Source: an uncultured Bradyrhizobium sp. (GTDB lineage: Bacteria > Pseudomonadota > Alphaproteobacteria > Rhizobiales > Xanthobacteraceae). Taken from it: a DNA stretch of 64,000 bases. The position numbers and the translations under genes were made by a program. Below are positions 26,134 through 27,404 of this stretch, piece after piece. Within the stretch, counting starts at the first letter, position 1. Every line of letters starts with the position of its first letter. The notes under the pieces were generated by a model that was not told where the DNA came from, did no database searches, and saw nothing but the letters and a program-made list of their open reading frames with translations. The stretch lies in assembly GCF_947648125.1 (NCBI RefSeq), contig NZ_CANSMR010000001.1, forward strand, positions 682,001 to 746,000, in the 5' to 3' direction.

Positions 26134-26772
26134 ATGGCAGGCATTCTACCGACGGATGAGGGTGACAGCGACCGGCTTGTGCTGGGACTGCTCAGCTCCC
26201 TCGAGGCGGATGGCGCGCAATCGCAGCGGCACATCGCGGCCGAACTGGGCGTCGCGCTCGGGCTGGTCAATGCCTACCTGAAGCGGGCGATCAAGAAAGG
26301 CTTCGTCAAGGTCGGGTCGGCGCCTGCGCGGCGCTATGCCTACTACCTCACCCCGCAAGGCTTCTCCGAAAAATCGCGCCTGACCGTCCAGTTCCTTACG
26401 GACTCCTTTTCGCTCTTCCGCAAGGCGAAGGAGGAATTTGCTCGGCTGTTTGAGGACGCGCAGGCGCGCGGCTTCAGGCGGGTCGTGCTCGCCGGACAGT
26501 CGGACCTTTGCGAGATCGCGATCCTGTGTGCGGTCGACGGCCCGATCGCGATCCTCGCCATCGTCGATCCCGACGCCACCGCGAGCCGGTTCATCGGGGT
26601 AAAGGTGGTGTCCTCCTACGCGCTGGTGGACGAGCCGTTCGATGCGGTTGTGGTGACCCATTTGACGGCCGCGCGAACTGTCTTCGATCAGGCGGTTAGC
26701 AATTTCGGGGCGGAGAGGGTGCTCGCGCCGGGGCTGCTGGGCTTGTGTCCCAAGCAGCCACAGGGAGCGTGA
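26134..26772 (+). CDS. winged-helix transcriptional regulator with Rossmann-like C-terminal domain
   Basis: A 212-residue protein. Residues 13-75 form a MarR-like winged helix: the recognition region is QRHIAAELGVALGLVNAYLK (31-50), and the wing contains GSAPARRYAYYLTPQG (61-76). It resembles exopolysaccharide-associated MarR-family regulators. Residues 112-180 (FRRVVLAGQSDLCEIAI, AILAIVDPDA, FIGVKVVSS, FDAVVVTHL) look like the CoA-binding/PglD-N type Rossmann half seen in sugar-biosynthesis proteins, so a nucleotide-sugar ligand is conceivable. A GTG at 26095 is in frame but lies inside the operator, so ATG 26134, with ggggat seven bases upstream, is chosen. The stop overlaps the antiterminator start by one base. 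Confidence 0.8.
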   Translation: MAGILPTDEGDSDRLVLGLLSSLEADGAQSQRHIAAELGVALGLVNAYLKRAIKKGFVKVGSAPARRYAYYLTPQGFSEKSRLTVQFLTDSFSLFRKAKEEFARLFEDAQARGFRRVVLAGQSDLCEIAILCAVDGPIAILAIVDPDATASRFIGVKVVSSYALVDEPFDAVVVTHLTAARTVFDQAVSNFGAERVLAPGLLGLCPKQPQGA

Positions 26773-27287
26773 TGGCCATGGAGCCGGGTTTCCACTGGTA
26801 CGTTGTGCAGACGCAAGTCAATGCCGAGGTGAAGGCCGCCGCCAATCTCGAACGGCAGGGGTTTTCTATCTATTTTCCCCGCTACATGAAGCGCCGCAGT
26901 CACGCCAGGAAAGTGGAGACTGTGCCGCGTCCGTTGTTTCCGCGCTATCTCTTTGTCGGGATCGACGTCGAGTCCCAGCGATGGCGTGCAGTCCAGTCGA
27001 CGCTCGGCGTGTCGCATCTTGTGTGCGTCGGCGATCGGCCGGCCGTGGTAGAACACGGCGTCATCGATGCCTTGAAGTCGCGCGAGGATGAGGCCGGCTT
27101 CATCACGCTTGTGCGCAGAGCGGCTTTCTCGCCCGGCGACACGGTACGAATTGTCGATGGCGCATTCGTCGATAGTCTTGCGCTTGTGGAAAATGCCAGC
27201 GACCACCATCGTGTGGCCGTTCTCTTGAACCTGTTGGGCCGCAAGGTGCGCGTTCTCGTCGGGGCGGATCTGATCGCCGCGGCTTGA
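26772..27287 (+). CDS. NusG-paralog antiterminator, RfaH/UpxY-like
   Basis: A 171-residue protein with the NusG N-terminal domain (HWYVVQTQVNAEVKAAANLE at about 8-27, FPRYMKRR, and RPLFPRYLFVGID at about 53-65) and a C-terminal KOW-type domain (about 117-165: FSPGDTVRIVDGAFVDSLAL). Specialised NusG paralogs of this size (RfaH, UpxY, LoaP) ride on RNA polymerase and suppress termination in long polysaccharide operons. Placement immediately before about 31 kb of biosynthetic genes, with an ops-like element 70 bases downstream, fits. The housekeeping nusG normally sits by secE and rplK, which are absent here. ATG 26778 is an alternative start. Confidence 0.88.
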   Translation: MAMEPGFHWYVVQTQVNAEVKAAANLERQGFSIYFPRYMKRRSHARKVETVPRPLFPRYLFVGIDVESQRWRAVQSTLGVSHLVCVGDRPAVVEHGVIDALKSREDEAGFITLVRRAAFSPGDTVRIVDGAFVDSLALVENASDHHRVAVLLNLLGRKVRVLVGADLIAAA

Positions 27288-27356
27288 GCGCGTTCTGCTG
27301 TCCGGCGGGCGTGACGGAAATATTTTGGCTCGGGTGTGACGCTGATTCACCCCGAG

Positions 27357-27368
27357 TGCGGTAGCTTG
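27357..27368 (+). promoter_or_regulatory. ops-like antiterminator recruitment element
   Basis: TGCGGTAGCTTG matches 10 of 12 positions of the E. coli ops element as I remember it (GGCGGTAGCGTG), including the unbroken core GCGGTAGC. It lies 70 bases after the RfaH-like gene and 37 bases before the first sugar gene of the long operon, the expected leader position. An imperfect hairpin (TCGGGTG at 27329-27335 with CACCCCGA at 27348-27355) stands just upstream. An exact 8-mer would be expected about 0.002 times by chance in a gap of this length. Confidence 0.5.
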
Positions 27369-27404
27369 CCTGAAGCAAACAGAACGTTCGAAGAGAGGGA
27401 CTTC

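Follow-up and report, generated by a model that had tools for sequence, protein, structure and literature searches.

The window, that is, the whole 64,000-nt stretch of Bradyrhizobium DNA analysed here, contains on its plus strand a gene for a winged helix-turn-helix (wHTH) regulator at 26134 to 26772, a gene for an RfaH-like paralog of NusG at 26772 to 27287, and a glycan operon of approximately 31 kb extending from 27405 to 58232. The two regulatory genes overlap by a single base. The wHTH product is MarR_EPS-like (TIGR04176, 65.5 bits, below the cutoff of 88), and a homolog of its gene precedes rfaH in 87 of 96 loci whose leader possesses the ops-like element described below, together with 49 of 68 loci whose leader does not. 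The first gene of the glycan run (27405 to 28343), named wlbA-like in a preliminary description of this DNA, matches the GFO/IDH/MocA oxidoreductases in Pfam. Hexapeptide transferase, asparagine synthase-like, epimerase, WecB, DegT, ABC transporter, glycosyltransferase and UDP-sugar dehydrogenase genes are also present within the run, along with some ORFs that have no family match. The ORFs and their Pfam and NCBIfam assignments bear out the run of about 31 kb previously proposed, and we infer that 27405 to 58232 is transcribed as one unit.

The 171-residue RfaH-like protein was compared with Pfam and NCBIfam models. A NusG match of 76.9 bits (cutoff 22.2) precedes a KOW match of 20.4 bits, marginally below the Pfam cutoff of 22.3, such that the domains occur in the order NGN then KOW. 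The top NCBIfam model was RfaH itself (TIGR01955), with a score of 124.6 bits that does not reach the equivalog cutoff of 144.5. PRK09014 scored 92.2 against a cutoff of 124, and the LoaP model 44.2 against a cutoff of 125. The assignment of this ORF as a NusG paralog in the preliminary description is upheld by these matches. Across the whole genome, NusG-domain matches were confined to the RfaH-like gene and the housekeeping nusG. The nearest named homolog, from Bradyrhizobium acaciae, is 89% identical. In a tree of 32 rows, two of them NusG, the RfaH-like family and E. coli RfaH were split from the NusG rows with support of 100/98, E. coli RfaH lying on a long branch that renders its placement unsure. 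Relatives of the protein were also found in 90 plasmid records of PLSDB, all at less than 60% identity and including four Bradyrhizobium plasmids.

The ops-like element, TGCGGTAGCTTG (27357 to 27368, plus strand), begins 70 nt past the stop codon of the rfaH-like gene and 48 nt ahead of the ATG at 27405. It is identical to the E. coli sequence GGCGGTAGCGTG, taken from three E. coli K-12 leaders, at 10 of 12 positions and differs at positions 1 and 10 only; the full 12-nt E. coli consensus is not reproduced. The location of the 12-mer just before the wlbA-like gene and its degree of identity to E. coli ops, both reported previously, were thereby reproduced. The element includes the bases that form the ops DNA hairpin, G2 to C9 with the loop G5-T6 (27358 to 27365). 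Taken without comparison, a bare match of this kind is at chance level: 1.8 copies of GCGGTAGC would be expected per window, and eight sites in the window, TGCGGTAGCTTG among them, differ from the E. coli 12-mer at no more than two positions. The match acquires significance because it is conserved in homologous leaders.

Conservation was assessed within the genus, using 146 genomes of which 28 match the RfaH-like protein at E ≤ 1e-10 and 25 possess a full-length homolog at E ≤ 1e-29. GCGGTAGC is located 54 to 95 nt past the stop codon in 24 of these 25, down to a protein identity of 39%. The preliminary description had named non-conservation in homologous leaders as the finding that would count against it; the opposite was found, and far beyond Bradyrhizobium. 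A wider set of 164 leaders of 250 nt was drawn from the genus, family and class (27 weaker or contig-edge homologs being left out) and compared with a 22-nt pattern comprising one hairpin arm and ops, TCACCCSGANTGCGGTAGCNTG. The mismatches were distributed bimodally, with 95 leaders at 0 to 5, a single leader, whose ops core is exact, at 6, and 68 at 7 to 11. Five or fewer mismatches were thus observed in 95 of 164 leaders, compared with 0 of 162 upstream controls and 0 of 164 shuffled leaders; no control had fewer than six. Some of the genomes behind the 68 leaders lacking the element carry it elsewhere.

Within the 96 positive leaders, which were selected by the pattern at no more than 6 mismatches of 21 (a selection that favours, and does not force, core invariance), G2, C3, G4, G8 and C9 were each present in all 96, G5 and A7 each in 95 and T6 in 90. 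The pause dinucleotide was retained as T11 in 85 and as G12 in 76. Position 1 was T in 86 and G in 10; position 10 was free (A 39, T 33, G 20, C 4). In the ops-paused complex of E. coli, G2:C9, C3:G8 and G4:A7 are described as pairing and RfaH as reading the loop bases G5 and T6, with the TG at positions 11 and 12 setting the pause (PMC11001881, PMC5995543). The pattern of invariance is that expected if a hairpin in the non-template DNA is read. The one exception at A7 belongs to a locus (L028, genome G094) where the homolog is interrupted by an internal stop and the adjacent element is degenerate (19.6 bits); here, gene and element seem to be decaying together. In a further genome (G057:C194:23904-24181), two elements of 40.1 and 34 bits, approximately 240 nt apart, follow one rfaH-like gene.

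The co-occurrence of gene and element was examined with a covariance model, R1, the strict filters of which leave few scored candidates per genome, so that weak or bulged elements can escape. Among the 146 genus genomes, 24 scored at least 38 bits, all of them within the 25 that have the full-length gene; the 25th (G138) has a match of 21.5 bits at the expected place. The best score in the 121 other genomes, a group that includes three with weak or partial protein matches, was 24.5 bits. The sole genus member without the element in its leader (L022, genome G085) possesses one 44 kb away on the opposite strand. Of 385 genomes of the class, 41 scored at least 28 bits, and 38 of these 41 hold the gene at E ≤ 1e-15, compared with 51 of the 344 others. 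Among the three genomes with an element and no gene at this threshold, G416 and G609 have NusG-like matches of 27 to 28% identity only, and G509, a genome 74% complete, yielded no NusG-like match. Several class genomes contain elements far from the gene, and across the genus and the class such elements lie 44 to 68 kb away or on separate contigs. A pattern search of the genus allowing two mismatches yielded background, with at least 122 of 146 genomes matching, and was given no weight.

A scan using the DNA pattern only was conducted over 84,980 species and returned 83 stretches, against a chance expectation of about 0.5 (calculated by hand from 20 specified bases, 257 Gb, both strands and equal base frequencies). 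The organisms were mainly Bradyrhizobium, Afipia, Rhodospirillales, Pelagibius, Ferrovibrio and unclassified alphaproteobacteria. Eighty stretches were examined: an RfaH-like ORF was found in 65, and in 63 an ORF lay 48 to 182 nt upstream on the same strand. The 15 loci without one comprise four from Bradyrhizobium or Afipia that are truncated on the left, four apparent coincidences and seven candidate separate sites. Hits in Meiothermus/Calidithermus and Acidobacteriota (L062, L071, L097 and L131, the last itself cut short) were dismissed as coincidences, having neither an RfaH-like ORF nor a matching 5' arm. A 5.1-kb contig filed as a cyanobacterium (cf. Phormidesmis LEGE 11477) carries the element together with a weaker RfaH-like ORF (E 2.6e-13), and represents either contamination or transfer.

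When 398 genomes of the phylum were searched at E ≤ 1e-4, the hits that lay beyond the class came from one family, f188, in seven genomes, two of them at 46 to 50 bits; two further weak matches look spurious. An RfaH-like ORF ends 48 to 326 nt upstream at five of the seven f188 loci. These elements (L323, L324, L329 to L331, L333 and L335) lie outside Alphaproteobacteria, and some of their hairpin sequences differ, for example in being of the CAGCTG...CACCTG type.

Beyond what the preliminary description had proposed, the analysis found a hairpin abutting ops, operators associated with the wHTH gene, and element sites elsewhere. The RNA hairpin (27328 to 27357, plus strand) has a minimum free energy of -16.7 kcal/mol and a z score of -3.0; the corresponding z scores in two relatives are -6.2 and -5.5. 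It terminates at T1 of ops or about one base before. Of the 10 bases immediately preceding ops, at least 7 are paired in 61 of 76 non-redundant positive leaders, the remaining 15 falling short of this. An ungapped stem with at least 9 of 11 pairs is present in 44 of the 96 positive leaders and the others are bulged or weaker, some carrying a bulged C that shifts the 5' arm by one base in the MAFFT alignment. The sequence CACCC of the upper stem is itself conserved.

Covariation was measured in an alignment, A2, of 23 sequences picked for near-gapless stems. The score was 0.288 compared with 0.131 for shuffled alignments, none of 500 of which reached it; on a weaker measure, the number of pairs changed on both sides, A2 gave 4 compared with 2.6, a value reached by 26 of 500. 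Because the selection of A2 favours clean hairpins, we relied instead on an alignment-free test in which 5' regions were swapped among the 76 leaders. The mean duplex energy was -12.29 kcal/mol for native combinations compared with -10.32 kcal/mol for permuted ones, and the native mean was attained in 0 of 2000 permutations. The outcome was again 0 of 2000 when the 3' arm was reduced to its final four bases, compared with 159 and 927 of 2000 for two control segments. These data indicate that pairing of the hairpin is maintained through compensatory changes. With RNA polymerase (RNAP) positioned at U11, the base of the hairpin would lie approximately 11 nt behind the end of the RNA, which we take to be the geometry of the his pause. 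The window leader gave no match to the JUMPstart model RF01707 at a threshold as permissive as E ≤ 5, and none of 16 element loci matched it at the gathering threshold.

Upstream of the wHTH gene, an inverted repeat, GTTCA-N5-TGAAC, is present in two exact copies. The distal copy occupies 26058 to 26072. The proximal copy (26086 to 26100) falls in the spacer of a promoter-like sequence, TTGACG-N18-TATCAG (26081 to 26110, plus strand), as if the operator sat within the promoter spacer of a wHTH-rfaH transcript. A third copy (21715 to 21729) occurs again in a TTGACG context, ahead of an ORF at 21867 to 23681, which suggests a second promoter under the control of the wHTH regulator. These are the only three exact copies in the 8.57-Mb genome, and all are in the window. 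Among homologous loci, 125 of 136 have the repeat ahead of the wHTH gene, 90 of them in two or more copies; shuffled sequences gave 0. In these 125 loci, TTGAC directly precedes the operator with a per-base conservation of 65 to 82%, and TA occurs 19 to 20 nt from the first base of the operator in 62 to 64%. Judged from position alone, the wHTH protein would bind GTTCA-N5-TGAAC.

Twenty element sites are not directly downstream of rfaH. Five are doubtful, namely four (L290, L296, L299 and L121) that are divergent from rfaH-wHTH genes and whose operators are possibly shared, and one (L315) that is possibly an rfaH leader split at a contig end; their removal leaves 15. The first genes at the 20 sites encode cytidylyltransferases (three), DegT aminotransferases (two), RmlD, an epimerase, a hexapeptide transferase, a GFO/IDH/MocA protein, methyltransferases (three, one of them FkbM), ABC transporters (two) and a Band_7 protein, with five giving no Pfam match. 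The first gene is clearly of glycan type at 8 of the 15 sites (three cytidylyltransferases, two DegT, RmlD, hexapeptide transferase and FkbM). An operator was found no more than 300 nt upstream at 9 of the 15 (12 of 20 with the doubtful sites, three of the four divergent ones being positive). Since separate sites frequently carry an upstream operator, the ops-type element and the operator often travel together.

The residues through which E. coli RfaH contacts ops were surveyed in 55 aligned homologs, 54 of them drawn from element loci of the DNA-only scan (E. coli numbering throughout). Q24 is conserved in all 55 and R23 in 44. The position of H20 is occupied by N in 34 and H in 18, and that of R16 by K in 29 and R in 8. 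K10 is retained in 6 of 55, and in 1 of 96 proteins at positive leaders; R73 is retained in 2 of 55 and 14 of 96, respectively. The window protein possesses Q, N, R and L at the positions of K10, H20, R23 and R73. The positions of T66 and T67 are occupied by W71 (55 of 55) and R72 (50 of 55). R138 is present in all 55 homologs, and E48, the residue of the autoinhibitory salt bridge, in one. The E. coli contacts thus appear to be kept only in part in the alphaproteobacterial proteins. Because K10, R73 and E48 are absent from the RfaH-like protein, both the recognition of ops and autoinhibition probably differ from those of E. coli RfaH. Among the six leaders without T6, five are accompanied by a protein with Arg at the R73 position (residue 78 of the protein), compared with 9 of 90 leaders with T6 (Fisher 1.8e-4). 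As this association was picked out post hoc from 13 positions with kinship ignored, the pairing of base 6 with residue R73 may be regarded only as a lead towards a specificity code.

We propose that RNAP pauses at a signal composed of the hairpin and ops, that the RfaH-like protein is loaded there, and that surface-glycan operons are thereby controlled at two levels, a reading to which we assign a probability of roughly 0.78. At the level of initiation, the wHTH protein would bind operators located in the promoter from which its own gene, rfaH and the glycan genes are transcribed together. At the level of elongation, the nascent RNA hairpin would form in the leader right behind RNAP, the non-template strand would display the ops hairpin GC-GGTA-GC, and RNAP would pause near U11. 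The RfaH-like protein, made just upstream, could then dock on the ops DNA hairpin and displace NusG, keeping RNAP, and probably the ribosome too, going across 31 kb of glycan genes. The RNA hairpin may strengthen the pause or help to select the factor. Pausing, docking, exclusion of NusG and antitermination are each carried over here from the E. coli RfaH literature and would apply by analogy. The findings suggest that a modified form of the enterobacterial control system works in a distant bacterial class.

Within this proposal, a tentative elaboration that we consider plausible without favouring it is that the signal is bipartite: an RNA hairpin in the exit channel and the ops DNA hairpin might jointly select RfaH, such that a protein without E. 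coli-type autoinhibition would stay specific. Were this so, the reading of ops would have evolved without R73 and the E48 lock, contrary to the joint acquisition that has been proposed.

The main rival to two-level control through ops docking holds that a constitutively open, monomorphic factor loads co-translationally in cis, and that the element is a mere time-giving pause with its pause hairpin and no docking site. The proximity of the gene to its operon is in keeping with such loading, as is the replacement of most K10 and R73 residues and the loss of E48 in 54 of 55 homologs; a putative monomorphic RfaH encoded near LPS operons, active without ops and missing a few ops-binding residues, has also been described (PMC13015549). 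A mere pause, however, would have no need of the near-invariant core of the ops hairpin, the central bases of which are reported to be dispensable for pausing (PMC5995543), and cis loading leaves unexplained the elements that are 44 to 68 kb away from the gene or that lie on different contigs. The invariance of the core and the distant sites thus argue against cis loading alone, and the loss of E48 and R73 argues for a changed mode of action; we consider this rival improbable.

We judge marginally less probable still the explanation that the hairpin and GCGGTAGC constitute an RNA-level signal, such as an attenuator, a site for an RNA-binding protein or a translational control element, unrelated to the reading of non-template DNA. 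Compensatory changes in the hairpin and the conserved CACCC would suit it, and a NusG paralog, LoaP, can bind an RNA hairpin (PMC12691694). On the other hand, no U-run follows the hairpin in the leaders inspected, which rules out an intrinsic terminator, and the reading phase of the element relative to the start codon is mixed (34/34/26 of 94 under a simple start rule), which likewise rules out a coding explanation and counts against a signal at this level. Furthermore, the 8-nt core is that of the E. coli ops DNA hairpin and co-occurs strictly with an RfaH homolog. Lastly, a chance match, or conservation merely through linkage to a conserved gene, draws on the 1.8 occurrences of GCGGTAGC expected per window, but is refuted by the 95 positive leaders against none in the controls, by the visible divergence of the remaining leader among distant homologs, by the copies away from the gene and by the excess of stretches in the DNA-only scan.

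According to a 2020 paper (PMC7593976), E. coli RfaH was the sole representative with a recruitment mechanism understood in detail, and a 2026 preprint states that there was no earlier evidence for regulation in cis by RfaH orthologs (PMC13015549). Our searches of the open-licence literature turned up no description of ops or JUMPstart-like elements from Alphaproteobacteria. Another class now supplies dozens of pairs of gene and element in which both partners vary naturally. It thereby becomes possible to ask whether the reading of ops preceded autoinhibition, which NGN residue reads each base, and what role is played by the hairpin beside ops. For rhizobial glycan operons, the gain is a candidate two-level control and a target signal that can be searched for.

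As in the E. coli RfaH/ops system, the alphaproteobacterial factor is a NusG paralog with NGN and KOW domains, the DNA signal has the core GCGGTAGC with a pause TG at 11/12, the operons are long and encode glycan functions, and sites apart from the gene occur in some genomes. Unlike in E. coli, the gene often adjoins the operon that it targets and is linked to a wHTH gene that has its own operators. In addition, position 1 of the element is T (86 of 96), position 10 varies freely, most proteins have lost K10, R73 and E48, and R-W-R stands in place of H65-T66-T67. The short hairpin that ends beside ops in polysaccharide operon leaders is shared with JUMPstart (RF01707), and the E. coli waaQ, wza and rfb leaders, which have such a hairpin before ops, match RF01707 at 55 to 60 bits; the alphaproteobacterial hairpin, by contrast, is longer, has another sequence and does not match the model. 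JUMPstart was listed by Weinberg et al. as gamma-proteobacterial, with mention of a conserved stem-loop (PMC2864571).

Wang et al. (2020) placed 18% of rfaH genes in Alphaproteobacteria and described a cluster, CL4, associated with an HTH regulator and with envelope-biogenesis neighbours (PMC7593976). The genes studied here resemble CL4, by description only, in their regulator, their class and their neighbours, and differ in possessing a candidate recruitment element, none being reported for CL4 proteins in the available text of that paper (PMC7593976). LoaP of Bacillus velezensis is likewise a NusG paralog with an RNA hairpin in its target leader; this hairpin is, however, an RNA site of the UNCG type with no discernible pause, and the available text reports no ops (PMC12691694). 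Finally, monomorphic RfaH also lacks some ops-binding residues and is encoded near a glycan operon, and E48 is missing in the proteins examined here; in contrast, it is reported to be active whatever the ops context (PMC13015549), whereas an ops-type element is conserved in the leaders described above.
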